Shown here: one piece after another, positions 28,020 through 53,431 of the stretch
Position numbering within the stretch: the first letter of the stretch is position 1
Layout of the letters: each line of letters begins with the position of its first letter
From: Mesorhizobium sp. NZP2298
GTDB taxonomy: Bacteria > Pseudomonadota > Alphaproteobacteria > Rhizobiales > Rhizobiaceae
DNA: 64,000 nt
Direction: 5' to 3'
Assembly: GCF_013170825.1 (NCBI RefSeq)
Contig: NZ_CP033365.1
Location: 6,274,001 to 6,338,000 of the forward strand
Program-made: the position numbers and the translations under genes
Notes under the pieces: model-generated
What the model was told of the DNA's origin: nothing
Database searches by the model: none
What the model saw: the letters and a program-made list of their open reading frames with translations, nothing else

Positions 28020-29279
28020 CTATTGGATTGCAGCACTTTGCAGATCACTGCTGAATTTGGCCTCGACGGTATCCCCCGGCGTCACAATCGTATCTTCGTC
28101 TGCCGAGATTTTGCGCCACTCGTCGCCTATCTTGCGCACGATAGTGACTTGAGCCTGGATCGTTTCACCGGCAATCGGCAATGGCTGGGCGGATGCTCCG
28201 GTCGGTTGCAACTTCTCGCTGGCGGCGCGGAGTCTGGTGGTGACATCCCCCAGCCGCGCATTGGTGTCCTTCAGATCCGTTAGCAAGCCAACTTTCCTCT
28301 GATTGTCATTGCGTTCGCGCTGCCTGACATAATCCTCCTGCTGGCGCCGCGCTCTCATGAGCTCGACCGAGGTTTGCAGCGCGCCGCTTGAAGAGAGAAG
28401 CAAGGCGCGCCTGACATCGGCGAGCCGGGTGTTGGTCAGATTGCCTGCCTCGAACGCCTTGGTTACTTTCGCCAGGTCATCCTGATCCGCCTTCACGCTC
28501 TCGGACTCGACCTCTTCGCGCTTCTGCAAAAGCTCGATTTGATCGGCCGCGTCCTTCTGGCCCTTCTCAAGGAAAGCCTGTTCCTGCTGGAAGTCGCTCA
28601 GCGCAATCTTCAGCGCGTCTTCCTCGGCCTGGGCGATCGCTGCCCCGACGCTGGGCGACAGAGGTGACCCCTGCGGTGTCTGCTTGTCGAAATCCGCCTG
28701 GTCCTGAAGTTCGGCGCGGAGACGGGCGGCGTGAAAATACTCTTTGGTGTAGTCTCCCCAAAGTGTTTCGTAATCGCGCCTGAGATCAACCGGATCTGGT
28801 CCGGTCTGGCCCGCCCGTGACCGCAAGAGGCTGAAGCCGCCGGAGACGGCGAGCGCCTGCCGCACTGTCATGAGCGGACGGTAGGCCTGCTGCCCCGGCG
28901 TGAGCACGTCGCCCGTCACGTAGATCGGACGATAGTCGGCGATGATGGCCGTTATATCGCCTGGTTTGACGACAACCATCTGCTCTCGTCCATCGGGCAA
29001 ACGCACGTGAAAGATCGTGGTCGGCAGAAGCGTCTGCATGCGGTTCTGCAACTCGGACGCGGTCAACCCTCCGACCATAACCATCCCGACTTCGGGAAGG
29101 GCGATGTTGCCGTCCATCTGGACCACGGCTCGCTGCGTCCGATCCGGAATTGGTGCTATCCCTATCTCGACCGTATCGCCAGGTGACAGGCGATAGGGCT
29201 CGACCTCGCCGGCGGCAGCCATCGATGCCAGGAATATCCCGGCAACCGAGGCGAGAACGGTTCGTTTAGTGAAGGCCAT
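28020..29279 (-). CDS. polysaccharide export protein (ExoF/Wza-like)
   Basis: A 419-residue periplasmic or outer-membrane export component. It has a Sec signal peptide (cleavage near SMAAAG-EVEPY) and the polysaccharide export domain YRLSPGDTVEIGIAPIPD with PEVGMVMVGGLTASELQ, then a SLBB-like segment (IYVTGDVLTPGQQAYRPLMTVRQALAVSGG). A long coiled coil (about 200-340) and a C-terminal beta segment follow. Length matches rhizobial ExoF (about 420 aa), and there is no lipobox. It probably works with the ExoP-like protein at 43462-45672. Its first 14 nt overlap the end of the upstream propeller-like gene. Confidence 0.88.
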   Translation of the reverse strand: MAFTKRTVLASVAGIFLASMAAAGEVEPYRLSPGDTVEIGIAPIPDRTQRAVVQMDGNIALPEVGMVMVGGLTASELQNRMQTLLPTTIFHVRLPDGREQMVVVKPGDITAIIADYRPIYVTGDVLTPGQQAYRPLMTVRQALAVSGGFSLLRSRAGQTGPDPVDLRRDYETLWGDYTKEYFHAARLRAELQDQADFDKQTPQGSPLSPSVGAAIAQAEEDALKIALSDFQQEQAFLEKGQKDAADQIELLQKREEVESESVKADQDDLAKVTKAFEAGNLTNTRLADVRRALLLSSSGALQTSVELMRARRQQEDYVRQRERNDNQRKVGLLTDLKDTNARLGDVTTRLRAASEKLQPTGASAQPLPIAGETIQAQVTIVRKIGDEWRKISADEDTIVTPGDTVEAKFSSDLQSAAIQ

Positions 29280-30534
29280 TTGCGACAATCTCCTTCTGGT
29301 TCGGCACCGGCTCCGAAGGCCATTCAAGACGGGAAACGAAATCGTATACCGGGCCACCGGGCACGCCCCAATTGCTCGACCAGATCACCTGTGAGCCATC
29401 AGGAGACGGCGAGGCATGCGTCTCGCTCCAGTAATCGAAGTGCGCGTTTTGCGTGTCGACGACACGGCGGACCTCTCCGCTGCCGTCCAAGCGCAGTGCA
29501 ATGACCTGCTGGGCGTAAGGCGCCCAATCCGGGTGCCGCGCTATTTCGGCTGGCGTGCCGCCATAGCTTAGAAACACCCAGCCCGGCCTGTCGAGCGACC
29601 TGAGCGACGCATGCATGGCCTCGCCATATTTCATCAGCGAGGTGACCTTGCCGTCAGCCAATCGGCGCTTGATCACCTGATATTTGTCGGGCTCCGACTT
29701 GCTGATCCCGACATAGATTTCGCTGCCGTCGGTATCGACCGTCATGTCGCCGTGACCGGGCCGGTGGTGCTCCATCCACTTCTGGCGCAGGACGCCGTCG
29801 ATGGAAAAGATGAAGTTCGGTTCATTGCCGTCCGGCAATGCCTGTGAGCACACAATGTTGATCCCGAGCGGGGAGATCGAACAGGAGCCGGTGGTTCCTG
29901 GAAGCTGGGCAAGATCGATATCCGGGAACTTCTTCCGCTCCTTTAGGTCGTAGCCAAAGACCACCGCCTTGCCGTCATTGCGCGTCGCACGCACAGCAAT
30001 GCGGTTGCCATCGCGGCTCGGATTGCCTTTGTTAGGCCCGAACTGAAGCTTGCTGTAGGCCGACGAGGCGAACACGACGTCCTCCTGGTCGGTGCGTGGC
30101 GCCCAGGTTGAAATCTGCCGGCCGGCAACGCAGATCATCAGCCGGGGATCCCTGGGATGCCATTCGCATTCAATCGAGCGGTCGCGGTGGAACAATGGGA
30201 CGTAGCTGTGCCCGTCGAGAAAGCACATGCCACCGCAACCATTGACGATCAAAAGAAGGCTCTGGTCGGCATTCCAAGCCTGTGCGCTTGAGTAGCGGTG
30301 AGTGCAGTATTTCGTCCCGCATACACCGGCCAGGCCGAGAACTCCGGGTCCTGTGATCCGTAGGAAGACCGTGCCCGACGCCGGATCCCTTGTTTCACGG
30401 AGATAGTCCGGAAGGTTGGCCGCCACCGGCGGCCCCGATGCGTTGCTTGCCCGACCGCCGGCCATGTAGAAGTTCAGGAACACGGCACCGGCAACCAGCA
30501 ACAGTGCCACCACATGCCGGCGCAGCAGGATCAT
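29266..30534 (-). CDS. membrane-anchored propeller-like protein of unknown function
   Basis: A 422-residue protein. Residues 6-26 (RHVVALLLVAGAVFLNFYMAG) form a signal anchor; the rest is predicted periplasmic. Repeated beta motifs of about 45-55 residues with WNADQSLLLIVN, WHPRDPRLMICV, SRDGNRIAVRATR, DTDGSEIYVGIS and SPDGSQVIWSSNWG resemble TolB/WD40-type propeller blades. Paired cysteines (CGTKYCTH, CGGMC) may form disulphides. No enzyme motif is recognised. The ATG at 30534 overlaps the dehydratase stop by 4 nt and its stop overlaps the ExoF-like start by 14 nt, so it is firmly in the EPS operon. Confidence 0.8.
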   Translation of the reverse strand: MILLRRHVVALLLVAGAVFLNFYMAGGRASNASGPPVAANLPDYLRETRDPASGTVFLRITGPGVLGLAGVCGTKYCTHRYSSAQAWNADQSLLLIVNGCGGMCFLDGHSYVPLFHRDRSIECEWHPRDPRLMICVAGRQISTWAPRTDQEDVVFASSAYSKLQFGPNKGNPSRDGNRIAVRATRNDGKAVVFGYDLKERKKFPDIDLAQLPGTTGSCSISPLGINIVCSQALPDGNEPNFIFSIDGVLRQKWMEHHRPGHGDMTVDTDGSEIYVGISKSEPDKYQVIKRRLADGKVTSLMKYGEAMHASLRSLDRPGWVFLSYGGTPAEIARHPDWAPYAQQVIALRLDGSGEVRRVVDTQNAHFDYWSETHASPSPDGSQVIWSSNWGVPGGPVYDFVSRLEWPSEPVPNQKEIVANGLH

Positions 30535-31535
30535 GTCATATAGCCCTTTTCGCGCCGTACCCGGCCTTCGCCAAGGCGCGCGCGCCACCATGCGATCGTC
30601 CGCTCGAGCCCATCGCGCAGACTGGTCTGCGCCCGCCATCCCGTCTCGCTTTCAAAGCGCGAGGTATCGGCGAGCAGGGCGCGAACCTCCGAATTTTGCG
30701 GCCGCAAACGGCTTTCGTCGCGATGGACCGGCTTTTTGGAACCGCTCAATTCGAGGACGAGGTCCAATACGTCGGAGATGGTCACGGCGCGTTGGCTGCC
30801 GGCATTGTAGGCGTGGCCGAATTCGAGCCCCGCCAAGCCGGCCGTCAGGAACGCCGCGGCGGTGTCTTCGACAAAGGTCAGGTCACGGATCGGGCTCGTA
30901 TCACCGACCATGATCGCCGGGCAGTTCGGGTCGAGCGCCTGCCGGATGATGGTCGGCACGATCGCGCGCTCACTCTGGCGAGGACCATATGTGTTGAAGG
31001 GCCGCATGATGACGACCGGAACATCAAACGACCTGGCGTAGGACTCCGCCATCATGTCGGCGCCGATCTTGGATGCCGAATAGGGTGACTGTCCCTGCAG
31101 CGGATGCGTTTCGCGAATGGGCATGGTCTGGGCGGTTCCGTAGACCTCGCTCGTGGAGGTATGCACCACCCGCTCCGTCTCCCATTGACGCGCCGCTTCG
31201 AGCACGTTCACCGTGCCCAGGATGTTGGTTTCCACATAAGACTGGGCGGCCGCATAGGAGTATGGAATCGCAATGAGGGCAGCCAGATGAAACACAACGG
31301 CCTGGCCACGCATGATCCGGTTCAGGAATGCGCTGTCGCGGACGTCACCGCGGACGAGCTTCAGCCGGCTGCGGATGTTGTCCGGCAAATCGTCCAGCCA
31401 CCCATGGCTGTCGAAGGAATTGTAGAGCGCCAGGGCCGTGACATCCGCCCCGTTGCGCACAAGCGCTTCGGCGAGATGCGAACCGATAAATCCATCCGCG
31501 CCTGTCACCAGAACTTTCTTGCCATTGTAGCTCAT
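30531..31535 (-). CDS. NAD-dependent 4,6-dehydratase / epimerase (LegB-like)
   Basis: A 334-residue extended SDR. The cofactor motif GADGFIGSH is at residues 12-20, and the active site has SxxxYSASK (GQSPYSASKIGAD) with TSTSEVYGTAQ. The segments FHLAALIAIPYSYAAAQSYVETN and FNTYGPRQSERAIVPTII closely match LegB-type UDP-GlcNAc 4,6-dehydratases. Those enzymes generate a 4-keto-6-deoxy sugar for PLP aminotransferases, and an aminotransferase of the right class is encoded two genes upstream. No NeuB-like synthase is seen, so a full legionaminic acid pathway is not supported; a bacillosamine-like or other amino-deoxy sugar is more likely. Confidence 0.85.
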   Translation of the reverse strand: MSYNGKKVLVTGADGFIGSHLAEALVRNGADVTALALYNSFDSHGWLDDLPDNIRSRLKLVRGDVRDSAFLNRIMRGQAVVFHLAALIAIPYSYAAAQSYVETNILGTVNVLEAARQWETERVVHTSTSEVYGTAQTMPIRETHPLQGQSPYSASKIGADMMAESYARSFDVPVVIMRPFNTYGPRQSERAIVPTIIRQALDPNCPAIMVGDTSPIRDLTFVEDTAAAFLTAGLAGLEFGHAYNAGSQRAVTISDVLDLVLELSGSKKPVHRDESRLRPQNSEVRALLADTSRFESETGWRAQTSLRDGLERTIAWWRARLGEGRVRREKGYMT

Positions 31536-31580: not shown

Positions 31581-32255
31581 TCATGCGTCGATCGGCGGTG
31601 ATGGAACCCAGCCGACAACCGCCAGGAAGCCGCGCGCCATCCACATGATGTCGGAGCCGATGGTGCGCTGCGGATAGTAGGACAGGTCGAGTCTTGCCTT
31701 GGCCGGGAACATGACCTCCCGGTAGAAAAGGATGGGATCCACGGATTGGGGAAACAAACGCGCCTCGTGCCGGAAAAGAACCTGCGTTGGGCCCAGCAGG
31801 CCGGGTTTGTAGCGCAGGACCGCCTCCAGGCCACCATGGAAGCAATCTGCGAAAGCCAGGCTCTCGGGTCGTGGCCCAACGATCGCCATCTCGCCTTTGA
31901 GGACATTCCATAGCTGCGGCAATTCGTCGAGTTTGGTCGCGGCGAGGAAGCGGCCTACCGTCGTCATGCGGCTGTCGCCAACCATGGTCAGGGCGAGGCC
32001 TTGGGAGCTGCAGTCCACCCTGAACTTGCGGAATTTGTACATGCGGAAGGGTTGGCCGCCGGCGCCCATACGGGTTTGCACGAACAAGACGGAGCGGCCA
32101 CCTTCGAGCAGAAGCGCCACGGCAATCAGCAGCATCAGCGGCGCCAAAATGACGAACGCGGCGCCGGCGACCGTGAGATCGATCGAACGTCTCACGAGGC
32201 CATGCGTGGGGCTTGAGATGAGACGCCGGTGAAGGGAAAGGTCTGATGCATTCAT
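31581..32255 (-). CDS. sugar transferase (undecaprenyl-phosphate phosphoglycosyl transferase)
   Basis: A 224-residue monotopic phosphoglycosyl transferase of the bacterial sugar transferase family that attaches the first sugar-phosphate to undecaprenyl phosphate. Visible parts are the membrane helix RSIDLTVAGAAFVILAPLMLLIAVALLL (23-50), the YKFRKFRVD segment, KLDELPQLWNVLKGEMAIVGPRPE with the conserved catalytic Asp-Glu and PRP motif, and a C-terminal RYKPGLLGPTQV. It is the short form without the five-helix N-terminal domain, as in ExoY. The ATG overlaps the aminotransferase stop by 4 nt, so the two are coupled. Confidence 0.9.
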   Translation of the reverse strand: MNASDLSLHRRLISSPTHGLVRRSIDLTVAGAAFVILAPLMLLIAVALLLEGGRSVLFVQTRMGAGGQPFRMYKFRKFRVDCSSQGLALTMVGDSRMTTVGRFLAATKLDELPQLWNVLKGEMAIVGPRPESLAFADCFHGGLEAVLRYKPGLLGPTQVLFRHEARLFPQSVDPILFYREVMFPAKARLDLSYYPQRTIGSDIMWMARGFLAVVGWVPSPPIDA

Positions 32256-38376: not shown

Positions 38377-39507
38377 ATGGTCGAACTGAACTCGACAGGG
38401 CAGAAGCTGGCGGATGCCGCTCGCGTGCAGTCTGACGGCGCTGTGTCGGAACTTGCGCGCGCTGGGCCGGTCGTCGTCACGGGTGCCGCTGGATTCATCG
38501 GATTTCATGTCGCGTCGCGGCTTTTGCGACACGGCGTCGAGGTTGTCGGCGTCGACAATTTCACGCCCTACTACGATCCAAGGCTAAAGGAAGAGCGATT
38601 TGCACGCCTCTGTGCCGAGCCGAGGTTCACTCCCATGCGGATGGACCTCGCGGGCCAGGCGCTCGTGAAAGCGCTGTTTTCCGACTTCCGGCCATCGCAT
38701 TTTGTGCACCTCGCCGCTCAAGCCGGGGTGCGCTATTCGCTCGTCGACCCGCATGCCTATGTGCAGTCGAACATCGTCGCGTTTCTCAATGTCCTGGAGG
38801 GTTGCCGGCGCACCGGCGTCGACCATCTCGTCTATGCCTCGTCGAGTTCCGTTTATGGCGCCAATCGAAGCATACCGTTTTCCGAGCACCATGGCGCCAG
38901 TCATCCGGTCAGCTTCTACGCCGCGACCAAAAGCGCCAACGAATGCATGGCGCATTCCTACAGCCACCTGTTCGGGCTGCCCGTGACCGGACTGCGCTTC
39001 TTTACCGTCTATGGTCCCTGGGGCAGGCCCGACATGGCGGTCTATACGTTCACCCATGCCATAGCCGAGGGACGAACGATTGAAATCGCCAATGCCGGCC
39101 ACGTGTGGCGAGATTTCACCTATATCGACGACATCGTGGAAGGGGTGGTTCGCGTGCTCGCCGCGCCGCCGCGCGCGGATCCCGATTGGGACAGTCAGGC
39201 AGCCGATCCCGCCACCAGTTCGGCGCCCTATCGGATCTACAATATCGGCAATGACCGGCCCGAAGAGATCAACCGCCTGATCGCGATCATCGAGACGGCG
39301 CTCGGCCGCCGCGCGCTTCGCGTCAATGTGCCCTTGCCTCCGGGCGACGTTCTGGAAACCCGCGCCGACGTCAGCGATCTTCGCCGCGCTGTCGGCTTCG
39401 CGCCGGCAACCGCACTCGAGGACGGCGTGCAACGGTTCGTGGAATGGTACCGGGATTTTCACGGAAAACCCGCCGGCCGGGAACGGCAAGTGTTCATTCC
39501 GGCATAG
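38377..39507 (+). CDS. NAD-dependent epimerase (UDP-glucuronate 4-epimerase-like)
   Basis: A 376-residue extended SDR. After an unusual 30-residue N-terminal extension comes VVVTGAAGFIGFHVA (cofactor), GVDNFTPYYDPRLKEERFARL, HLAAQAGVRYSL, the active site SSSSVYG with YAATKSANE, and FFTVYGPWGRPDMA. These segments are characteristic of UDP-glucuronate 4-epimerases, which supply UDP-galacturonate. The ATG at 38377 has a CAGGAG about 8 nt upstream. It lies alone on the plus strand within the minus-strand EPS block, so it may be controlled separately by the tandem palindromes before it. Confidence 0.88.
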   Translation: MVELNSTGQKLADAARVQSDGAVSELARAGPVVVTGAAGFIGFHVASRLLRHGVEVVGVDNFTPYYDPRLKEERFARLCAEPRFTPMRMDLAGQALVKALFSDFRPSHFVHLAAQAGVRYSLVDPHAYVQSNIVAFLNVLEGCRRTGVDHLVYASSSSVYGANRSIPFSEHHGASHPVSFYAATKSANECMAHSYSHLFGLPVTGLRFFTVYGPWGRPDMAVYTFTHAIAEGRTIEIANAGHVWRDFTYIDDIVEGVVRVLAAPPRADPDWDSQAADPATSSAPYRIYNIGNDRPEEINRLIAIIETALGRRALRVNVPLPPGDVLETRADVSDLRRAVGFAPATALEDGVQRFVEWYRDFHGKPAGRERQVFIPA

Positions 39508-39733: not shown

Positions 39734-40936
39734 TCAGTCTGCCTTGGGATAAGCCGGCACCGGAAATGGGCGCAACTGCTGTCGGGCGCTGGACCCGACT
39801 CCCAAGAGGCGTCGGGCACGGCCAGTCAGCGGCTTCTCGAACAGGCGGTAGGTGATGAGTGCCACGCCGAAGGTGGTCGCCAGCGCCAACGCGATAAAGG
39901 TCCATGGGCCAAGCACCAAAATCAGGCCGGTTCGCCAGAAGAAGATGCGCATGGCGCGGATCACGAACGGATGCAGCAGGTAGAGAGCGTAGGACGCATC
40001 GCCAACGCCAGCGCCCCATCGCGCGGCCAGGCTTTCCTGCCGCAGCTCGCCTGGCGCCAAGGCAGCACTCCAGACGATGAGAGATGCCGGGATGCCATAG
40101 ACAACGGGGCGGGCGAGGCCGATGGAGATATCGGGAAATGCCGCCGCGAGCATCAGGGCGGCCAGTCCCGTTGCAGCGACGCAGGCCCTGATGAAACCGG
40201 ATGGCCGCAGGCCCGAGGTGCACATGATGCCGATTATCACGCCAAAGGCGAACTCGAGGATGATCGGATCGGTCCAGAACGCGAATGGCTCCCGCAAAGG
40301 CGCCGCGAGACGGCCTGCGAACACCATCCCCACCAGGGTCGTGAGCAGGACAGTGACGGCCCAACGCATGGGGAGCACGATCGCCGCCGCAAACAACACG
40401 TAGAAAAGCATCTCATAGTTGAGCGTCCAACCTAGCTCGTAGAGGGGCTGAACGACGCCGTCAGGGCGAGTGGCAGGGATGAAGAAGTAGGATTCGATTA
40501 CAAACCTGGAATTGATGTAGCTCTGGTTGAGGAAGGTGGGAGCGAGCAACGCCACGGCAAGATAGAGCGTGGTGACCGACCAATAAAGCGGGACAATCCG
40601 GGCTATCCGGCGAGAAAGAAAGAGGCGCGCGCCACCCGTCTTTGCGAACAGCTGTCGCGACGTGTGCACCATGATCAGGCCGGAAATCACGAAGAAGATA
40701 TCGACTCCAGCGCTCCATGGTATCGGTTCCCAGGCTTGAAAGGTGCGGCCGGCCTCCAGTTCCAAGGTCGCCGCATCGTGCTGGGCGTGGCGCAGCGCAA
40801 CCGAAGTCGCCGCGAGGGCGCGCAGAACCTGGACCTGTGTGAGGGTTTGACGGTGGCCGGGCTCGACAGGCGTCGATCTTTCGGACCGATGGCGCATCGA
40901 AGGCGTCGAGACCGCCGCCATTGGTTCTTGTCCCAT
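39734..40936 (-). CDS. acyltransferase family 3 membrane protein (OafA/ExoZ-like)
   Basis: A 400-residue inner-membrane O-acyltransferase of the acyltransferase-3 family with about ten transmembrane helices. The signature begins with QVLRALAATSVALRHAQHD, containing the conserved His, and continues with SAGVDIFFVISGLIMVHTS and RRIARIVPLYW. LYLLHPFVIR marks the C-terminal part. Such enzymes acetylate or otherwise acylate sugars of polysaccharides, as ExoZ does for succinoglycan. ATG 40936 follows GGAG at 6 nt; GTG 40957 is an alternative. Confidence 0.9.
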   Translation of the reverse strand: MGQEPMAAVSTPSMRHRSERSTPVEPGHRQTLTQVQVLRALAATSVALRHAQHDAATLELEAGRTFQAWEPIPWSAGVDIFFVISGLIMVHTSRQLFAKTGGARLFLSRRIARIVPLYWSVTTLYLAVALLAPTFLNQSYINSRFVIESYFFIPATRPDGVVQPLYELGWTLNYEMLFYVLFAAAIVLPMRWAVTVLLTTLVGMVFAGRLAAPLREPFAFWTDPIILEFAFGVIIGIMCTSGLRPSGFIRACVAATGLAALMLAAAFPDISIGLARPVVYGIPASLIVWSAALAPGELRQESLAARWGAGVGDASYALYLLHPFVIRAMRIFFWRTGLILVLGPWTFIALALATTFGVALITYRLFEKPLTGRARRLLGVGSSARQQLRPFPVPAYPKAD

Positions 40937-41156
40937 GGATGCTCCGCAGCTTGCCACATCACGGTGACGCGCGTCCGGAACTCACGCATCCTTCAAATGA
41001 CGGACACAGACCGTAAAACATGATGGCCCTGCCGGCAGGCCTTCAGCCATCTCGAATGGTGCCAAGCTCACTCGCCGCGATGCCGATGAACATGCATCGG
41101 GCTTTCGTTCACCGACTGGTCGGAGACGGGGACCGGCACCGATGGATGAAGTGCCC

Positions 41157-43388
41157 TTATTTACCCGCCCTCAAGAACCAATTCCCTTGCTGGGCGTCAA
41201 TCGCGCTTGGCCTGATCGAGAGCAGAGCAAAGACCAAGCCCGGCAAGATTTTCAGTCGCTTGCCGATATAGATGGCCATGGCAACGCTCCAGATACTTAG
41301 GGCAAGCGCGACACCCACGGCAGCGCCGATCGGGCCGTAAATCGCGACGCCCACGGCACAGGCTATGATGTTGGCCGCGGCGCCGGCGATCATCGTCGTT
41401 GCGGCGGCCCATTCGTTCCCAGTCATGGTCAGGAGATTCTGCTGAGGCCCGCACAGCGCGACAAAGACATATCCCAAAATGAGAACACGCGCGATTGGTG
41501 CTCCCGCGATGTAGCCCTCACCGAAATAACTCAAGAACGGTTCGACGATCAGCATCATCGGGATGGCCACCGCTATGGCGCCACCGGCGGAAAGCAATGT
41601 AGCCCGTGCGAACAGTTGCTGCAGAGCCTGACGATCTCCCCTGGCGTACAGATCGGCCGCGGTTGGCGAAAACATGGTAGCGACGGCGATGCGAGAGAGT
41701 CCTACAAGCATCGCGACATTCAGCGCCAAGGCGAAAATACCGGCTTCACGAATATGGTCTGTCCAGCCCAAAACCAGCACCCCTGCCCGGCTGACAAAAA
41801 CATCGAGCCCGGTGATGAGCATGAGCGGGGGGGCGGCAAACCACCATTCCCTTGATGCATAACTAGGCTGGGTCTGCCGCAAGCCAGGTGGTTCAAACTT
41901 CCTCGCGGTGATGAACACCAGCCCAACCGTGAAGGCGGAACTTATCAGCACCGCCACCATCACCGCCGGCGCGTCCACGACCCATAGTGCGGACTTGGCC
42001 ATGATCGCCACCAATATCAGCAGGAGCCCATCTCGTACGATGCGCTCCGGCAACAGCGCCGAGACGACGCCCCCAAAGGCACGTATGAGCGTAGCGCCAA
42101 TGGCATAAGCGGTAATCAAGGGTACGGCCGCCATGCCAAGCACGATACTGATCTCAAGTCCGCTTCGCATATGATCCGATTGCGCATGATCCGAAAAGAA
42201 GAGGACCAAGGCAGCGCCCGTCATTCCAAATAGGGTCGCCGCAAGAAGCGATTTCTGCAGGGCGAATTTTATCACCCCCCGCGCCAGATCAAGCCTGCCG
42301 TTGGCTCTGTAGGCCGGCACAAAACGCAACAGGGATACATTGAAACCGAGCGTTGCCAGATAGGCGAGCACCGAGGTCCAAGCCAGAACATAGGAATAGA
42401 TGCCGTAATTGCCGGGCCCGATGAGACGTGCAATGGCCAGCTGTGCAAGGCTCGTCAGCCCGGCACCTCCGATATATATCAAAAGGGCGAAGACGCTTGC
42501 TCGAGCGAGCCGCGAGCCGACGTCCTTGTTCCGTCGAGGTTTGACTGCTGAAGGAGGGGCAGCGGGATAAACTGGAGCCTTTCGGGACACGCGACTGTCG
42601 AGAGCCATGGCATGGGCATCGGGAACGCCTTTTCGGTCTCGACCTGCCAACCCTCCATCCATCCGCGAAAGAGCGGAAATGACTTGCTTCTCGACCGTAC
42701 AAATACCCTTGAACTTCGATTGACAATCGACATTGTCGACAGGAATAATTTTTCGGCCGGAAGTCGCGAGAAGATCATTTATGGATTCGAACACATCAAC
42801 GGAAAGCATATTCACGTTCAAGTCGGCCTCAAAAGCCCGCTCCGCCGGCGGTTGGTGCTTGATCCGCTGTCGTAAACGGTTCTCCACGACAGCGGACGGC
42901 ACCACCAGCCTGATGGTGAGATCGGCCCGCGGCGCGAGGCTGAGCGCCGTTGCGAGCACATCGTTGTCGGTGCGCCCATTGAAAATCGCCAGCGATCCAA
43001 TCGCTTGAACGTATCCCTGGTCGAAAATTATAATATCGGGCGATTGCTTGGCACGGCTCCAGCAATGCGAAAGATGCAGAATATAGCGCCAGATTCGAGC
43101 GCGCCAGATTCGCTTCTTTGGTGTTATCAACCTTACCATAGACAGCGAAATGGAAAGATCGTTCGCTATCCCCCTCAAGGAAAGCAATATTCTTAAAGTC
43201 GATAATATTGCCGACGCGATTCTCGTGATGAACAGAACGATTCCAAGATCAAGGCTCCCCACCCTCGTGCTGGGCTTATAGCTGAGGGCGACCTTGGCGT
43301 GATAACCTTTGCCACGCAATTGCTCTGCCAGCGCGTGTGCAAAGGTTGTCTTGCCGGATCCTGGCGGTCCAAAAAATTCAATGATCAT
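41157..43388 (-). CDS. fusion of nucleotide-kinase-like P-loop domain and Wzx-type polysaccharide flippase
   Basis: A continuous 743-codon frame encoding two distinct parts. Residues 1-240 are a P-loop NTPase resembling thymidylate/adenylate kinases: Walker A FGPPGSGKTT (6-15), a Walker-B-like IIIFDQGY (119-126) and a lid-like Arg cluster (RLRQRIKHQPPAER, 171-184). Residues 241-290 form a polar linker. Residues 291-743 form a flippase of the polysaccharide-transporter type with 12-14 transmembrane helices (from RASVFALLIYIGGAGLTSLA, with ARLIGPGNYGIYSY near 320). The flippase would move lipid-linked EPS units across the membrane. An internal Met261 has no ribosome-binding site, so one fused product is expected. 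Confidence 0.83.
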   Translation of the reverse strand: MIIEFFGPPGSGKTTFAHALAEQLRGKGYHAKVALSYKPSTRVGSLDLGIVLFITRIASAILSTLRILLSLRGIANDLSISLSMVRLITPKKRIWRARIWRYILHLSHCWSRAKQSPDIIIFDQGYVQAIGSLAIFNGRTDNDVLATALSLAPRADLTIRLVVPSAVVENRLRQRIKHQPPAERAFEADLNVNMLSVDVFESINDLLATSGRKIIPVDNVDCQSKFKGICTVEKQVISALSRMDGGLAGRDRKGVPDAHAMALDSRVSRKAPVYPAAPPSAVKPRRNKDVGSRLARASVFALLIYIGGAGLTSLAQLAIARLIGPGNYGIYSYVLAWTSVLAYLATLGFNVSLLRFVPAYRANGRLDLARGVIKFALQKSLLAATLFGMTGAALVLFFSDHAQSDHMRSGLEISIVLGMAAVPLITAYAIGATLIRAFGGVVSALLPERIVRDGLLLILVAIMAKSALWVVDAPAVMVAVLISSAFTVGLVFITARKFEPPGLRQTQPSYASREWWFAAPPLMLITGLDVFVSRAGVLVLGWTDHIREAGIFALALNVAMLVGLSRIAVATMFSPTAADLYARGDRQALQQLFARATLLSAGGAIAVAIPMMLIVEPFLSYFGEGYIAGAPIARVLILGYVFVALCGPQQNLLTMTGNEWAAATTMIAGAAANIIACAVGVAIYGPIGAAVGVALALSIWSVAMAIYIGKRLKILPGLVFALLSIRPSAIDAQQGNWFLRAGK

Positions 43389-43461: not shown

Positions 43462-45672
43462 TCAAACCTTCGCCAACAGGAGGTCGGCATTATCCCCGAG
43501 CCGGTAGCCGCCGTGTCTCTTTAGATTCACCTGGGTGAGCACACTCCCTACTGGAACGGCGACGGATCCACCGCCGCGGAGCGACTCCAGAACACCACGA
43601 GCAATGCTGCGCCTCGTCCTGTCCCAGCGAACGGCGAAAAGCACCGCGTCAGCCCAGCGCTTCAGGAGTCTGGTTTCAGGGCCGCCGAGTCCCAGGGGCC
43701 CGTTCATGATGACGACGTCGTAGACCGAGAGCAGTTCATCGGTGAACTGGGATTTGTCGACCGTCGACAGAAGTGTCAGCAGATCATCCGAAGGTGCTGG
43801 AGCGGCCATGAGATCGATGCCGATTTCTGGCATTCTCGTGATTGCATCCTGCAGCGAGCAGCGTTCACTCACATAGTCTCCGAAGGAGTTGTGAGCCTTG
43901 ATGGTGCTGAATTCACCACGAAACTCCTTCGTGAGCCGCACGTCCTTGCGATCGAGGTCGAGGAAAAGCACCCTTCCGCCCAGTCTCGTTGCCGCCAGCG
44001 CCAGGCTCCATGCCAACTCTGTCTTGCCCTCGTCCTGGATGCTGGACGTCACGAGGACGATATGCGGCGGCTGACCCCTGCCCTGGGTGGGCGCCGCGGT
44101 GACGAGAAGGGATGTCGCGGCTCGACTGAACGGTGAGTTCTGCTGGCCCAGCACCAGATGCCGCAGCTGTCTCGCATGAAGTCCCGAAACCTTGGGAAGC
44201 AGCCCTATGCACGGAATCCCAAGCTCGGCTTCGGCTTCAGCTTCGCTGCGCAAGGTCTGATTGAAGTTGTTGCGGATCAGAACGAACACCGCCCCCATCA
44301 AGCCAAACACGATCATGCCGGGTGGAATCAGGAAAATTGGCGACAGGGTCTTGGGATTTGACGGCGGCCATGCCGTCGAAAGGACCGCTACGCCTGGCGA
44401 AGGAGCGGCGATGCGCCGTATCAGATCCTGCTGGCGGCCAAGGAGCTCGTTGTAGTGCTGTGTCACGATGGCCACCTGCGGCTCAAGGGCACGCAATCCG
44501 GAAAGCTGGCTCGCGGTGTCGGCCACGGCCGCGTCGAGCACCCTCTTGCGGTCCTCGAGAGCCGCGACCTGCGCGCGGTAGACATTCGCCTCCGCGGCGA
44601 TGTGTGCGATGGCCTGTTCCATCTCGAGGGTGATCGCGCTGTCCGGATCGCCGTCCGCGGCGGCCGGCTGGCGTGCCATCAGGTCCGTCAACACAGGCGA
44701 TCCGATCTCTTCGGCTATGGCCGAGACAGGGGCGCCCGCCTTTCGCAGGTCCTCGATATGGCGAAGGCGCGATTCCGAGGCGGAAAGATTGGCCTTCGAC
44801 AAGAAAATCTGCCGGCCGAGCTCCGCTGTTTCATTGGCTGCGTTGTTAGCCGCACTTTGATCAACGGCGCCGTGTGTCAGCCGGTAGGTCTCCAACCGAT
44901 CGGTCGCGGCGACCAGATCCTTTTGTACTTGCGGCAGACCGGCGACCAGCGACTCCAGCTCGAGCTGATCCGATGCACGACGTTTCTGCACGAGGTCTTC
45001 GATATAGATCTGAGCGAATGTGTTGGCGATGAGCGCTGCACGCGCCGGACTGGTATCGGTGAAGCCGATGGTGATGACGCGCGAGCGCAGCTCTTGTCCG
45101 ACCCTCATCCCGTTCCGCAGCGTCTTCAGCTCGGCGGCATCGGCGGCATCAGCTGCTTCCGGACTTCCCGCCGCCGGCTTGCCCTGCGACCAGATCCGGT
45201 TCAGGAGATTACTCACGAATGAGCCAGTGACGGGCGGGACAGCACTGATGCCGCTTTTTCCGGCAGCATCGGCATCCTGAGCCTTGCGCAGTGCGACCAG
45301 AACTCGACGCAGGTGGGCTTGCGACGAGAGCATCGTCAGATGATCATCTATGCTGGAATCCAGCGAATCTTGAACGAGCGCCGTGCCACCCGGATTGCCG
45401 GTGCTTGGGGCGTCGATGATGACCTGCGTCGTCGCCTCGAACAGCACCGGACGGGTAAGGCCCGCCAGGCCGGCCAGGATGCCACCCAGAAGGGCGATGG
45501 CAAGCAACAACCATTTTCTCGTCGCCAGGGTGATGACGAGCTGATGGAAGGGAGACAACGGTTGCATATGCTCGCGTGGCGGTCGCCTCATTCGCTGATT
45601 GGTGTCGAGCGTAGCAACAGCCATTTGCGTAGCGCGCGGAAGTCTGGCGCGGCTGGCTATGGAACCTTCCAT
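43462..45672 (-). CDS. polysaccharide copolymerase/BY-kinase-like protein (ExoP/Wzc-like)
   Basis: A 736-residue inner-membrane protein: a Wzz domain with two transmembrane helices (about 54-73 and 446-466) flanking a large periplasmic coiled-coil region, then a cytosolic tyrosine-kinase-like domain. The ATP-binding motifs are degenerate: Walker A reads TSSIQDEGKTE (542-552) rather than PGEGKS/T-T, A' reads FLDLDRKD (570-577), and Walker B reads VVIMNGPL (653-660) with Asn where BY-kinases have Asp. No C-terminal tyrosine cluster is present. It probably controls chain length and export with the ExoF-like protein, with doubtful kinase activity. Its ATG lies 1 nt after the asparagine-synthetase-like stop. 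Confidence 0.9.
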   Translation of the reverse strand: MEGSIASRARLPRATQMAVATLDTNQRMRRPPREHMQPLSPFHQLVITLATRKWLLLAIALLGGILAGLAGLTRPVLFEATTQVIIDAPSTGNPGGTALVQDSLDSSIDDHLTMLSSQAHLRRVLVALRKAQDADAAGKSGISAVPPVTGSFVSNLLNRIWSQGKPAAGSPEAADAADAAELKTLRNGMRVGQELRSRVITIGFTDTSPARAALIANTFAQIYIEDLVQKRRASDQLELESLVAGLPQVQKDLVAATDRLETYRLTHGAVDQSAANNAANETAELGRQIFLSKANLSASESRLRHIEDLRKAGAPVSAIAEEIGSPVLTDLMARQPAAADGDPDSAITLEMEQAIAHIAAEANVYRAQVAALEDRKRVLDAAVADTASQLSGLRALEPQVAIVTQHYNELLGRQQDLIRRIAAPSPGVAVLSTAWPPSNPKTLSPIFLIPPGMIVFGLMGAVFVLIRNNFNQTLRSEAEAEAELGIPCIGLLPKVSGLHARQLRHLVLGQQNSPFSRAATSLLVTAAPTQGRGQPPHIVLVTSSIQDEGKTELAWSLALAATRLGGRVLFLDLDRKDVRLTKEFRGEFSTIKAHNSFGDYVSERCSLQDAITRMPEIGIDLMAAPAPSDDLLTLLSTVDKSQFTDELLSVYDVVIMNGPLGLGGPETRLLKRWADAVLFAVRWDRTRRSIARGVLESLRGGGSVAVPVGSVLTQVNLKRHGGYRLGDNADLLLAKV

Positions 45673-45673
45673 C

Positions 45674-47671
45674 TCAATCCCCTGTCAGTTCGATATCGTA
45701 AGAAAGATGCGTTGCCGGCGCCGATGGCCGCATGGCTTCGTTGCGCCACGCCTGGAACATCAGCAGCGGCCACAAGTCGCGGAAATGATCCTGGTTTCCA
45801 CGCAGGTGATCGCGCCAACATGCGTCGACCTTCGCACAGTCGATGATCCCGTCCCCCGACAGGCGCATCGTGGCGATGATATCGGTTGCCCAGTCGCGCA
45901 GGGGCCCTTTCAGCCAAGCCCCGACCGGAACGTCGAAACCTTGCTTGGGCCGATCGACCAGTGAGCGCGGGACATAACGATCGAGGAGTTGGCGAAGGAT
46001 CCATTTGCCCTTGCCATTGCGGACCTTGACACTGGTCGGCAGGCGCCAGGCGAATTCCACGACGCGATGGTCCAGGACCGGGCACCGCCCCTCGAGGCTG
46101 TTGGCCATGGTGGCGCGATCGAGCTTCACCAATATGTCGCCCGGCAGATAGCCTGTCATGTCGTCAAACAGGAGACGCGAAAGCAAGTCGTCGAGCTTTG
46201 CCGCGACGGCAAGCGATGCCGGCGGCTTGTGATGAAGGAGGCTGTTGGTGGAAGACCCCGTCAGTTGCCGAAGCAGTTCGTCTTCATTTCGCGCCGCGAG
46301 CAGGCCGGCGAGGCGGTTCAACCTGTCACCGCGCAATCCGTGCCGCATACTTGCCGAAAGCGGCAGGCTGCCGAAGATGTCTAGGTGGGAGGCCTGAGCC
46401 AGCAATCCTGCCCCCGCCGCCAACATTCGACGAAACGATGATGGCAGCTCATGCTGCCTTCTGAGGCGGGTTGCCAGGAAGTGCCGGGAATAGCCCGCGA
46501 AACACTCGTCGCCACCATCGCCCGATAGCGCCACCGTTACGTGCTGCCTGGCGAGACGCGAAACCAACAGCGTTGGTATCTGCGACTCATCGGCGAACGG
46601 CTCGTCCCAGATCCGCGGCAGCTCCGGAATGACTTCAAGCGCCGCGGCCGGTGAAAGGTGAAGTTCGGTATGATCGGTGCCCAGATGCCGAGCAACCGCA
46701 GCCGCGTGGGGGGCCTCATCGAACCCGCTCTCACCGAATGCTATGGTGAAGGTGCGAACGGGCTTCCGGGACTGTGCCTGCATCAGGGCGACGACCGCCG
46801 AGCTGTCAATTCCGCCAGACAGAAAGGCGCCAAGCGGGACATCTGCAATCATGCGTTCCTTGACGGCAAGGCTAAGCAGCCTGTCGAGCTCTGTTGTAAG
46901 TTCCTCGTCGCTGCCGGCGATCGGATCCCGCTGCGCCTTGCTGGCGACATCGGCCAGCGACCACCAGCGGCGAACACGATGCGCAAGCGACCCGGCGCCG
47001 CGGGCATTGGCGAAATCCGCCGCCGTCACCGACAGAACTGAACCGGGCGGCAGCTTGAACACGCCCTGCCAGATGCAAAGGTCATCCGGCACCCACCCTT
47101 TCGAAAGCATCGTCGCCGCCGCATCGACGTCGAGTTCCAGGTTGAAGCCCGGGAAGCACGTGATCGCCTTCAGCTCCGAGGCGAAGACGAGCGCTTCACG
47201 TGTCGAGGCGACATAGAGCGGCTTTTTGCCCATTCGATCGCGGGCGAGATGGAGAATCCGTTTCTTCAGATCCCACAGCCCGAAAGCGAACATGCCGGCG
47301 AAGCGCTGGAGTGCCGTATCGAGGCCCCAGCTCTCGATCGCGCACAACATGACTTCCGTGTCGCTGGTGCCGCGGAAATGGTGGCCCTTCCCCTCCAGTT
47401 CGCGGCGCAGATCGCGGAAATTGTATATTTCGCCATTGAAGGTGATGACATACCGGCCGCTTGCGGAATGCATCGGCTGGCGACCCGCCTCCGAGAGGTC
47501 GACGATGGCCAGGCGTCGGTGGCCGAAGGCGATCCCGGCCTCACGGCTCATCCAGAATGCCTCGCCATCGGGCCCGCGATGACGAAGGGCCATCGCCATC
47601 GGTCCGATCGCCCTGAGGGCATTGGTATCGGCTGCATCTGGCGCCAAGAGAATTCCGGCGATCCCGCACAT
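45674..47671 (-). CDS. asparagine synthase (glutamine-hydrolysing)-like amidotransferase
   Basis: A 665-residue class II amidotransferase. The glutaminase domain begins MCGIAGILLA, with Cys2 the nucleophile, and contains HRGPDGEAFW and NGEIYNFRDLR. The synthetase domain has the pyrophosphate-binding loop SGGIDSS (285-291). AsnB paralogues inside polysaccharide clusters are thought to amidate uronic acids or modify sugars rather than make free asparagine, which fits here beside a uronate epimerase, but the role is inferred. ATG 47671 is required by Cys2. It lies 1 nt after the Wzy-like gene and 1 nt before the ExoP-like gene. Confidence 0.92.
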   Translation of the reverse strand: MCGIAGILLAPDAADTNALRAIGPMAMALRHRGPDGEAFWMSREAGIAFGHRRLAIVDLSEAGRQPMHSASGRYVITFNGEIYNFRDLRRELEGKGHHFRGTSDTEVMLCAIESWGLDTALQRFAGMFAFGLWDLKKRILHLARDRMGKKPLYVASTREALVFASELKAITCFPGFNLELDVDAAATMLSKGWVPDDLCIWQGVFKLPPGSVLSVTAADFANARGAGSLAHRVRRWWSLADVASKAQRDPIAGSDEELTTELDRLLSLAVKERMIADVPLGAFLSGGIDSSAVVALMQAQSRKPVRTFTIAFGESGFDEAPHAAAVARHLGTDHTELHLSPAAALEVIPELPRIWDEPFADESQIPTLLVSRLARQHVTVALSGDGGDECFAGYSRHFLATRLRRQHELPSSFRRMLAAGAGLLAQASHLDIFGSLPLSASMRHGLRGDRLNRLAGLLAARNEDELLRQLTGSSTNSLLHHKPPASLAVAAKLDDLLSRLLFDDMTGYLPGDILVKLDRATMANSLEGRCPVLDHRVVEFAWRLPTSVKVRNGKGKWILRQLLDRYVPRSLVDRPKQGFDVPVGAWLKGPLRDWATDIIATMRLSGDGIIDCAKVDACWRDHLRGNQDHFRDLWPLLMFQAWRNEAMRPSAPATHLSYDIELTGD

Positions 47672-47672
47672 T

Positions 47673-48932
47673 CTAATATCTCCTCTGGCGAATGATCGTG
47701 GGAACCGACTGAGACGTTCCAGCGACAAGGCAGAGGGTCAAAGAGAACCACACGATCGGATGGCGGATGATCAGGTGCGGAGCACTGAAGACAGCGATCG
47801 ATGCCGTAAGCGCCACGAGAGCGTCCAGCCTCGCACGCCAGGCGGACCAGGCGGCCGAGCCGAGGACCCACACCAGGGCCAGGACTGAAATCAGGCCGCC
47901 CTGAGTGTAGAGATCGAGGATCGTGCTGTGGGCCTCGAAAGGCCGCGGTAGAAACTGCTGATTGACCACGGGGGGAGTATCAAGGTGTGGGCCTGGGCCC
48001 AGCCCCAGAGATCCGGACCTTGCCCCCTTGTCCAATGCCGCGTCCCAAAGATAAAGGCGAAGTGCCGCGGTTTCCGCTGTCGCTTCCCCGCCCTTGTCCT
48101 TGGTGAGGCTCTTGGCGAAATCCTCGGCGTTGGCGGCCTCGCTGAGGGCGTAAGGCGCCATCGACACCGCCAATGGAAGGAACGCAACCGCGAGCAGGAG
48201 GGCAAGTTGGCGCGAAAGGCTGGCCTTGCCGCCGTCGCCTGCCAGCAAGGCCCGAAGCCGCAATCCCAGAAGGATCAGGCAGGCCAGGACTGTCGTATAG
48301 AGATAGGTATCGCTCTTTGTCAGCCTTCCGACATAGAAGATGAGGATCAGGCTGAATAGCCCAAGGCATCTTCCCCACGGATTGCTGGTGGTTATGGCAA
48401 GATGCAGGGCAAGGGGACCAAGCAGAGCGCAGTAGAGCGCAAGCTGGTTCGGATTCTCAGACCAACCGCAAAAGCGGTCCCAATACCAGGGTCGGACGCC
48501 AGACTGATGGATCCAGCCGAAACCAACCCCCACCTGAATGACAAAGCAGGCACTCGCGATAGCGATCATCCACCAGGCGATACGACGTAAACGGACAGCC
48601 GCGTTCGGCTCCGCGGCGGCCAGGCAGGTGACGCAGGCCAACAACACGTACGCCATCGTGTCATGCAGCAACGGATCGAGGAACAATTTGGTCGTCAGAA
48701 AGCCGATGATGGAACCAACGCCCAAGGCAAGCGTCAGGATCAGCCAGAAACGTGCAAGTTTGGCCAGGGCCGGCGTTACCTCCAGTCGGCCGCCAGCAAG
48801 GACCCGCGTGATCGACATCAATATCCAGAGCGTGAGGAAGAGTTCGCTGTAGCCGAACGGCAGCCCCGGAATGCTGAGCTGCACCGCGTAGGACATTGCT
48901 ATGCCGAAGGCCAGGAACGCGTCACGGATCAT
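47673..48932 (-). CDS. O-antigen ligase/polymerase-like membrane protein (Wzy/ExoQ-like)
   Basis: A 419-residue protein with ten to twelve predicted transmembrane helices and a large periplasmic loop near residues 275-330 containing the Wzy_C-type segment around GLGPGPHLDTPPVVNQQFL and HSTILDLYTQGGL, in which Gly, His and the nearby Arg are usually conserved. It is the probable polymerase of the EPS repeat unit. The ATG overlaps the GT4 stop by 4 nt (ATGA). A ligase role cannot be excluded by sequence, but with a flippase and copolymerase in the same operon, polymerase is the simplest reading. Confidence 0.85.
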   Translation of the reverse strand: MIRDAFLAFGIAMSYAVQLSIPGLPFGYSELFLTLWILMSITRVLAGGRLEVTPALAKLARFWLILTLALGVGSIIGFLTTKLFLDPLLHDTMAYVLLACVTCLAAAEPNAAVRLRRIAWWMIAIASACFVIQVGVGFGWIHQSGVRPWYWDRFCGWSENPNQLALYCALLGPLALHLAITTSNPWGRCLGLFSLILIFYVGRLTKSDTYLYTTVLACLILLGLRLRALLAGDGGKASLSRQLALLLAVAFLPLAVSMAPYALSEAANAEDFAKSLTKDKGGEATAETAALRLYLWDAALDKGARSGSLGLGPGPHLDTPPVVNQQFLPRPFEAHSTILDLYTQGGLISVLALVWVLGSAAWSAWRARLDALVALTASIAVFSAPHLIIRHPIVWFSLTLCLVAGTSQSVPTIIRQRRY

Positions 48933-50146
48933 TGCCGCGCCTCACCCAATCGGGGGGGTCGCGCACGCTCTTCCATCATGGTCGCAGGGGCCGATCGAGC
49001 AAGACTGCCGCTGCCACCGAGTACGGTCTTGTATAGCTCGCAATACTGATCGACGACCCACGACAGCGAAAAGCGCTCCCGCACGAGTCCGACGGAGCGG
49101 CCGCCCATGATTTTTCCGCGGGCGCGGTCGGACAGGATCTCGATTATCCTGGATGCGAAGCCTTCCGCGTCGCGCGGCGCGACGAGATAACCGTTCCAGC
49201 CATCCTCGACCACGTCATTGCAGCCGGGCATTCTCGAGGCCACGATAGGCAATCCGGACAATCCTGCTTCCAGCAGCACGCGCGGGATCCCCTCGCGATA
49301 TTGCGTCGGAAACGCGAACAGATCGGCCATGCCAAGGAGGGCCGGAACATCCCGCCTCGATCCCAAAGCGATCACGTGAGGAGCATATCGCTCGATATCG
49401 GACTTGTTGACCGCAAATGGACCTTCGGAATCCTGCGGGCCGACGAGCACGAAATGTGCATTGGGCCTCTCGGAGAGGACGCGGGGAACCGCCTTGAGCA
49501 GGGTCGGGATCCCTTTCTGACGGGTCAGCCGACCGACAAAGATTACGACTTCGGCCGATTGAAGCCCCAGTTCCTCGCGCATCGTGGCAGCCGACGGACC
49601 ACGATACCTTGCTGTCGAGAATGCATTCAGGTCGATACCAGAGCTGCGGATCAGTCGCGCTTTGCCGTCGCCCACCAGCCGGCAGCGCTCGAAGAAGGCT
49701 TGATCGTCGCGATTCTGGAAGACGGTCATCGCTGTCCACAACGACGCGAGGCCCTGAAGGGCGCAGAAGACCGGACGCAGGGCCAGAGCGCGCGGCTCCA
49801 GCGACGAGAATGTCCAACCAAGTCCATTGATGGTGCGGACGACCGGAACCTGCCCGCGCACGGCCAAGGGGGTCAGGAGGTTGGGCTTGGTGTCGAAACT
49901 TTGAACGATGTCTGGACGCAGTTCGGACATCAATTTGCGGACCGTGCCGAGAGCGCCCCATTCCGCGCCGCCACTGCTAAAACGGTCGAACCCAAATCGG
50001 CGATGGGGAATGCCATGGAGCGAAAAGGCTCCCCCCACATCGCTCGACACGGCAGTGACTCGAAAACCCTTTTCGCGCATCGCCAGCAGGAATGGGATTC
50101 TGAGGCGGTGATCCTCGCCTCCGATGCAGACAAGGTGCGGGCTCAT
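48929..50146 (-). CDS. glycosyltransferase family 4
   Basis: A 405-residue GT-B glycosyltransferase. The N-terminal half starts HLVCIGGEDHRLRIPFLLAM and includes RTINGLGWTFSS. The C-terminal Glycos_transf_1 domain shows FVGRLTRQKGIPTLLKA and the donor-binding E-x7-E motif within REGIPRVLLEAGLSGLPIVAS. Its sugar is unknown. It heads the minus-strand operon GT4, Wzy, AsnB-like, ExoP-like, flippase fusion, acyltransferase. It is the only canonical glycosyltransferase in the island, so others must be elsewhere or the repeat unit is very simple. Confidence 0.9.
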   Translation of the reverse strand: MSPHLVCIGGEDHRLRIPFLLAMREKGFRVTAVSSDVGGAFSLHGIPHRRFGFDRFSSGGAEWGALGTVRKLMSELRPDIVQSFDTKPNLLTPLAVRGQVPVVRTINGLGWTFSSLEPRALALRPVFCALQGLASLWTAMTVFQNRDDQAFFERCRLVGDGKARLIRSSGIDLNAFSTARYRGPSAATMREELGLQSAEVVIFVGRLTRQKGIPTLLKAVPRVLSERPNAHFVLVGPQDSEGPFAVNKSDIERYAPHVIALGSRRDVPALLGMADLFAFPTQYREGIPRVLLEAGLSGLPIVASRMPGCNDVVEDGWNGYLVAPRDAEGFASRIIEILSDRARGKIMGGRSVGLVRERFSLSWVVDQYCELYKTVLGGSGSLARSAPATMMEERARPPRLGEARQ

Positions 50147-53207: not shown

Positions 53208-53431
53208 CAAATAGACAGTCGCCATGCACACTCCACAGTCGAGCGTGGAGCGCCGAATATGCTTGGATAGTCAACAAGCTTCGGAGCCAAGTCGGCCATC
53301 CAAGTCCACGGCGTTTTGCTCGCTGTGATCAACGATTCTATCAAGGGACGCCGGTTTTTGATTTGTCTCTAATATATCCTTTCCACTAGGCAGGTGTGGG
53401 GCACCTACTGAATCGGACGAAGGATATTTGC

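Follow-up and report, generated by a model that had tools for sequence, protein, structure and literature searches.

Why does a Wzx-type polysaccharide flippase of Mesorhizobium sp. NZP2298 carry a P-loop kinase domain at its N-terminus, and what might this kinase phosphorylate? The gene lies in a stretch of 64,000 nucleotides (contig NZ_CP033365.1, positions 6,274,001 to 6,338,000), here called the window, to which coordinates refer unless another locus is named. A sequence-only reading of the gene had described one uninterrupted frame that joins a P-loop NTPase to a flippase of 12-14 helices through a 50-residue polar linker, and had suggested that the fusion may couple phosphorylation or nucleotide sensing to flipping. 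We confirm the observation, while the interpretation is partly supported.

One open reading frame for kinase and flippase

The fusion gene and the parts of its product are:

41157..43388 (-): kinase-flippase fusion gene, 743 aa (open frame, Pfam, structure prediction)
42663..43388 (-): P-loop kinase domain (KIN), residues 1-242, predicted TMK/dNK fold
43344..43370 (-): Walker A, residues 7-15, GPPGSGKTT; G7, G12 and K13 invariant in the kinase alignment A1
43182..43244 (-): hydrophobic helix in the kinase domain, residues 49-69, 19-residue hydropathy 1.91
43014..43022 (-): DQG motif, D123-Q124-G125; thymidylate kinases have DR[YHF] there
42864..42878 (-): arginines R171 and R175 of a LID-like region (from conservation counts)
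42528..42662 (-): polar linker, residues 243-287, mostly disordered (pLDDT <50 at 247-286)
41178..42527 (-): MOP-superfamily Wzx-like flippase, residues 288-737 (Pfam PF01943, Foldseek)

On the minus strand the frame runs uninterrupted from its ATG to its stop codon, a strand that the earlier reading did not name; the three plus-strand frames of 41157..43388 hold 8, 22 and 35 stops. Walker A is located where it had been placed, and hydropathy analysis predicts 13 segments for the flippase, within the proposed range, and 1 for the kinase part. The polar linker is present, although at about 40-45 residues it is slightly shorter than claimed. Inspection by eye of 42480-42720 revealed no convincing internal start for a separate flippase.

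The assignment of the C-terminal part as a Wzx-type flippase is borne out by a match to Pfam Polysacc_synt (PF01943; residues 300-562, E 5.6e-7, 29.7 bits against a cut-off of 28.2) and by Foldseek, which finds WzxE (9g9p_A, TMt 0.76) as well as MATE and MurJ proteins. The protein thus resembles the Wzx O-unit flippases, WzxE among them, in fold, Pfam match and Wzx/Wzy-type locus, and differs from them in its additional N-terminal kinase and in a different set of charged residues.

A sequencing error or missed stop could in principle have joined two genes, and at one locus (L145) a single stop codon does separate two in-frame genes, so that a single error there could mimic a fusion. Conservation of the fusion argues decisively against this. 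A homology search gave 334 proteins from 7999 scored candidates; among the 120 matches listed, 82 have at least 685 aa with a P-loop in the first 40 residues, the remaining 38 being shorter or lacking an N-terminal P-loop start. Fused homologues share between 42-43% identity (Bradyrhizobium sp. CB3481 and a Phreatobacter MAG) and 95% (Mesorhizobium sp. NZP2234), both extremes at 97% coverage. The full-length fusion is present in 11 of 101 genomes, the window's own included, and in one more it is cut by a contig end; in one of the 11 (G052) a TGA is flagged in our table, yet the frame reads open across both parts. With the fusion in many genomes and metagenome proteins over this range, a frameshift or missed stop is ruled out, and we regard the chance that an artefact created the gene as negligible. 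In G027 the fusion is broken into two overlapping frames (L029:8759-11003), and other exopolysaccharide (EPS) genes there are shortened.

Both parts are under purifying selection. Across 93 fused pairs, after removal of those with dS >1.5 or <0.05, the kinase part has a median dN/dS of 0.22 and the flippase part one of 0.14; the pairs have relatives in common, and some come from near-identical genomes retrieved twice.

The N-terminal domain has a predicted kinase fold

The earlier claim of a kinase-like P-loop domain stands. The domain is predicted to adopt the thymidylate/deoxynucleoside kinase fold, and its fold matches, among the matches listed, are nucleotide and nucleoside kinases. Sequence families match it weakly: AAA_33 reaches E 7e-5, under its cut-off, PF02223 scores 16.9 bits against a cut-off of 27, and TIGR00041 gives no match to the window protein at E 0.01. 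A PHROGs search yielded nothing beyond P-loop matches to thymidylate kinases. A search of solved structures with a profile of A1 (72 kinase rows) returned, among 60 matches listed, chiefly brief P-loop segments of RecA, AAA and adenylate kinase proteins, which tell nothing about the substrate; a single-sequence search gave matches at E 0.16 or worse only.

We considered whether KIN is a thymidylate kinase proper and rejected this. It shares the predicted fold and the P-loop with thymidylate kinases, but it carries DQG instead of DR[YHF] and GPPG instead of GG[ED]G, falls below the dTMP-kinase family cut-offs, and occurs in a genome that has its own true TMK. All 12 of 12 TMK control loci carry the TMK motifs, though these controls were read out by the same motifs.

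Seven residues (E4, G7, G12, K13, R56, D123 and R175) are invariant across the 72 rows of A1. Among the 82 fused proteins K13 is always present, 77 have Arg at position 56, and position 123 is Asp in 79 and Glu in 3; it is Asp in all 93 separate copies. R175 is found in 82/82 fused proteins and in 91/91 separate copies with a residue there, and R171 in 81/82 and 89/91, respectively. KIN of the window, with GKTT, D123, R171 and R175, has the Walker A lysine and threonine, the motif Asp and the LID-region arginines expected of an active P-loop kinase.

Not all fusions retain the P-loop intact. Position 14 is neither Thr nor Ser in 15 of the 82 fused proteins (9 Arg, 6 Ala; 2 further ones have Ser), 5 of these 15 also lack Thr or Ser at position 15, and four loci show GKAV or GKKV. 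The kinase-only search found a single protein without Thr or Ser at position 14, P0126, among 89 with a residue there; listed as partial, it resembles a fragment of a fusion, so that loss at position 14 appears confined to fusions. The fused domain might therefore be turning into a pseudo-enzyme with a docking or regulatory role, as in mycobacterial MviN. MviN is the MurJ protein of mycobacteria. Its protein-pseudokinase domain (residues 710-942) is reported to be deficient in ATP binding (PMC12599244), which offers a precedent for a flippase and a kinase-like domain in one chain; the MviN domain is C-terminal, however, and the pathway is that of peptidoglycan. For the gene studied here decay of the kinase is rather improbable, since the window protein keeps GKTT, DQG and both arginines. 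Even the degenerate fusions are still under purifying selection, with a median dN/dS of 0.17 for the kinase part (38 pairs). The adenylate kinase P-loop reads GKGT. GKRT resembles it, so the change need not abolish activity. Two loci (L049:5472-8918 and L054:7737-11335) hold a GKRT fusion followed by a second kinase with GKTT, the second copy of L054 being in pieces. Compensation by an intact second kinase is no rule, as the other degenerate loci show none in their stretch.

The exopolysaccharide locus

The genes around the fusion are:

43462..45672 (-): Wzz/tyrosine-autokinase-like co-polymerase (BYK), directly upstream (weak Wzz Pfam match, synteny)
45674..47728 (-): asparagine-synthase-like amidotransferase (family matches)
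47673..48932 (-): hydrophobic protein without family match, candidate Wzy polymerase from position and character
48929..50146 (-): GT4 glycosyltransferase (family matches)
39734..40957 (-): acyltransferase family 3, downstream (Pfam)
38377..39507 (+): NAD-dependent sugar epimerase/dehydratase (Pfam)
31581..32255 (-): bacterial sugar transferase, candidate initiating enzyme
28020..29357 (-): Poly_export family protein

BYK also matches exopolysaccharide transport families under their cut-offs, and regulators are present farther from the fusion gene. Judged by gene content, this is a Wzx/Wzy-type exopolysaccharide locus in which Wzy is placed by position only, and its gene order is largely repeated in the compared Mesorhizobium loci. 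Three other genes of the window are of note. An RTX-repeat protein (53396-54931, +), perhaps a secreted enzyme acting on the polysaccharide, has relatives in the same locus in many compared genomes. Next to the EPS genes, an NRPS-like gene encodes AMP-binding, carrier and thioesterase domains (50439-53207, +), with a relative downstream of the flippase in L075, L078, L086 and L097. A protein of 457 aa without Pfam match (29266-30639, -) has relatives of 46-71% identity in other EPS loci.

Fused, separate, swapped and kinase-less arrangements

We used the kinase alignment to scan named species genomes (100 relatives, best 80 loci kept). The window and these best 80 loci hold 83 kinase copies, four short or weak matches being left out: 30 are fused, 26 lie directly upstream of a flippase and 27 are found in other settings. 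One copy counted as other by the overlap rule (L109) is truly adjacent, which makes 27 adjacent and 26 other. In 10 of the 27 adjacent pairs a candidate flippase start overlaps the end of the kinase by 4 bases; in 7 further pairs kinase and flippase share one frame. At least two of three EPS marker genes accompany 25/30 fused, 22/26 adjacent and 13/27 other copies, and none of the three accompanies 13/27 other copies; the script's gene calls behind these counts are mechanical, and BLAST marker counts may miss divergent genes and those at contig ends. The kinase tree was built by a quick method and leaves 24 of its 79 inner branches open; on it, 'fused' requires at least 7 changes, 3 of them forced by starred branches. 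Thus fusion or fission took place more than once, in a direction that the tree leaves unpolarised.

The kinase is also kept next to a different flippase. In nine Mesorhizobium loci (L056, L058-L062, L065, L066 and L072) the co-polymerase and the kinase are followed by a flippase of family PF13440, assigned by Pfam on the protein of L032, which has the same sequence as that of L056; the flippases of the other eight loci share 85-89% identity with it. The kinases of these loci form a starred clade among the fused ones, on unstarred branches with 80 and 94% support. A PF13440-type relative (34-35%) is likewise present in the kinase locus of L112 and L114.

Conversely, the flippase occurs without the kinase. 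A survey of 397 genomes from the order gave 16 matches to the flippase above 240 bits, in 15 genomes, with the next match at 146; this search scored two candidates per genome and may miss weaker copies. Eight of these subfamily flippases are fused, 3 are adjacent to a kinase and 5 have no kinase in the approximately 19 kb around them. Four of the kinase-less flippases (L139, L141, L142 and L143) sit with co-polymerase, polymerase-like and GT4 relatives, and a search of their genomes gave no kinase at E 1e-8, the same search having matched in 5 of 9 genomes. The fifth (L140:9022-10602, +, in G347) is a stray flippase with no EPS marker nearby, from a genome with an adjacent kinase-flippase pair elsewhere. 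Kinase and flippase therefore each occur without the other. The kinase is an optional part, and the four kinase-less EPS loci indicate that a phosphorylated unit is not in every case a requirement of the flippase.

The flippase subfamily has a charged set (E448, R449, D453, R534, R634 and E659) unlike that of 21 distant flippases, whose genomes lay outside the kinase check with A1. We considered these residues as proof of a phosphorylated substrate; they are mostly kept in the five kinase-less subfamily flippases, which makes them a mark of the subfamily only.

These arrangements bear on the coupling idea of the sequence-only reading, taken here to mean that ATP binding or hydrolysis by the P-loop domain drives or gates flipping. 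A single polypeptide and the Walker A lysine, kept in 82 of 82 fused proteins examined, speak for such coupling. Against it stand the 5 of 16 subfamily flippases without a kinase within about 19 kb, the different flippase family that follows the kinase in nine loci, and the separate genes of other lineages. In addition, the disordered linker and the modest pTM of 0.63 in the predicted structure of the fusion give no sign of a fixed interface between kinase and flippase. ATP-driven flipping is weakened by the kinase-less and flippase-swapped loci, and we consider this coupling improbable; nucleotide sensing on behalf of flipping likewise finds no support here. As the kinase is kept despite a change of flippase and absent from some similar loci, a role in the glycan is likelier than one in transport energy.

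A candidate partner and the possible substrate of the kinase

Many of the unfused kinases have a further neighbour. A gene with NTP_transf_5-like and TMK-like P-loop parts (Pfam scores under cut-off), mostly of 500-640 aa, is present in the stretch of 22/26 adjacent, 4/30 fused and 4/27 other copies, and is absent from all five kinase-less stretches. In 23 of these 30 cases the gene ends 2-73 bases before the kinase. We regard it as a candidate partner. Examples are:

L068:4210-5739 (+): two-domain gene
L081:6350-7948 (+): two-domain gene
L101:6449-7981 (+): two-domain gene

At L064, L073 and L074 fusion and two-domain gene lie side by side. A shortened GT4 relative adjoins the fusion in L073 (177 aa) and L074 (238 aa), and the other genes examined around L064 and L074 are non-EPS genes (P-type ATPase, MFS, PEP carboxylase and others).

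It is mainly this neighbour that makes us retain, as possible though somewhat unlikely, an alternative in which the product of KIN is a soluble precursor, such as a sugar phosphate to be converted into an activated sugar by a nucleotidyltransferase, and the fusion only synchronises expression. A kinase together with a nucleotidyltransferase in most adjacent loci would suit precursor synthesis, and translational coupling alone can select for gene order. The same partner, however, is found next to few of the fused copies and was not detected in the window's genome by a single-sequence search run without positive control there. Moreover, a flippase anchor would be of little use to a soluble enzyme.

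A hydrophobic helix in the fused kinases also suggests membrane contact. Over residues 46-90 the median peak hydropathy is 1.87 in the 82 fused proteins, 1.04 in 88 separate ones and 0.87 in the only roughly matching region of 12 true TMKs, and a peak of at least 1.3 is reached by 74/82 fused compared to 34/88 separate proteins. The helix at residues 49-69 may thus touch the membrane. Its hydrophobicity would fit a membrane-located kinase, yet it is not a family-wide trait and the helix could be merely buried.

Proposed phosphorylation before flipping

The gene is a true fusion of two neighbours in a Wzx/Wzy locus, KIN and a MOP-family flippase (WZX). In our preferred reading, which we hold tentatively as quite possible but short of probable, the kinase phosphorylates a sugar on the undecaprenyl-linked repeat unit while this is still unflipped, and the flippase needs no ATP for its own work. 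MOP-superfamily flippases have their N-terminus in the cytoplasm, with which an Arg/Lys-rich stretch before the first flippase helix agrees. KIN would accordingly be cytoplasmic and face ATP and the repeat unit before flipping, and could transfer the phosphate of ATP onto the sugar just before the flippase acts in the manner of other Wzx proteins. The fusion would keep the kinase at the flippase, such that the repeat unit is modified during loading. The modification would be optional, because some lineages have a similar locus without the kinase. A phosphorylated sugar on the lipid-linked unit appears to us the simplest reading of these data.

Each half of such a scheme exists in nature. LpxK, the lipid A disaccharide 4'-kinase, is a membrane-active P-loop kinase with a lipid-linked disaccharide as substrate (PMC6286764); we cite it as a precedent in function only and claim no homology, and it is a two-domain enzyme that is not fused to a flippase. 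TacF is a MOP flippase that recognises the phosphate of its substrate and stops unmodified units (PMC13385700). It too is a functional precedent, handling teichoic acid with phosphocholine, and the available part of that source mentions no fused enzyme. By analogy to TacF, the flippase of the fusion may prefer the phosphorylated unit. In a stronger version the flippase would license itself, the kinase phosphorylating the lipid-linked unit and the flippase passing it on once phosphorylated, which would merge decoration and export into one step; we regard this as unlikely. Together with the nucleotidyltransferase-kinase gene of the unfused relatives, such a system would amount to a phospho-decoration module, so far undescribed, for the exopolysaccharides of alphaproteobacteria.

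Parts of this architecture are already known. Annotators have named both halves of the same protein family in the JGI name 'O-antigen/teichoic acid export membrane protein/thymidylate kinase', and the M. metallidurans name 'Exopolysaccharide biosynthesis protein (modular protein)' records, as a name only, its modularity. Among the matches listed, the NCBI name for the kinase family is only 'AAA family ATPase'. Flippases with other attached domains are known as well, and to say that flippases lack attached domains would be an overstatement: apart from the MviN pseudokinase (PMC12599244), MviN_MATE-clan flippases are reported as neighbours of VanZ-family domains or fused to them (PMC12419801). 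In keeping with the reading's remark that it knew of no description of the architecture, we found no account of a P-loop kinase fused to a Wzx flippase in the literature searched, which included few subscription papers.

The fusion bears on how Wzx flippases recognise finished repeat units. Since one locus occurs in nature as a fusion, with separate genes, with a swapped flippase and without the kinase, laboratory rhizobia offer a way to test whether decoration and export are linked. If our preferred reading is true, phosphorylated exopolysaccharides would be expected in the Mesorhizobium group.

Kinase copies in other settings

One kinase and flippase pair (L115) comes from a contig that bears the label Acidobacteria; its neighbours share 71-72% identity with genes of the window, pointing to either transfer or mis-binning. 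The window's genome has two more kinase copies outside the EPS locus, with 35% and 28% identity (L024:8304-9032, +, and L025:9495-10307, +). One of the extra copies, which is not among the 83 counted above, adjoins EamA and DUF1194 genes and, judged by eye, a MurA-like gene; the other is located near NRPS-like, asparagine-synthase and NAD-synthase genes. Copies outside EPS loci, such as the 13 of 27 in other settings without any marker, show that the kinase family has further uses.
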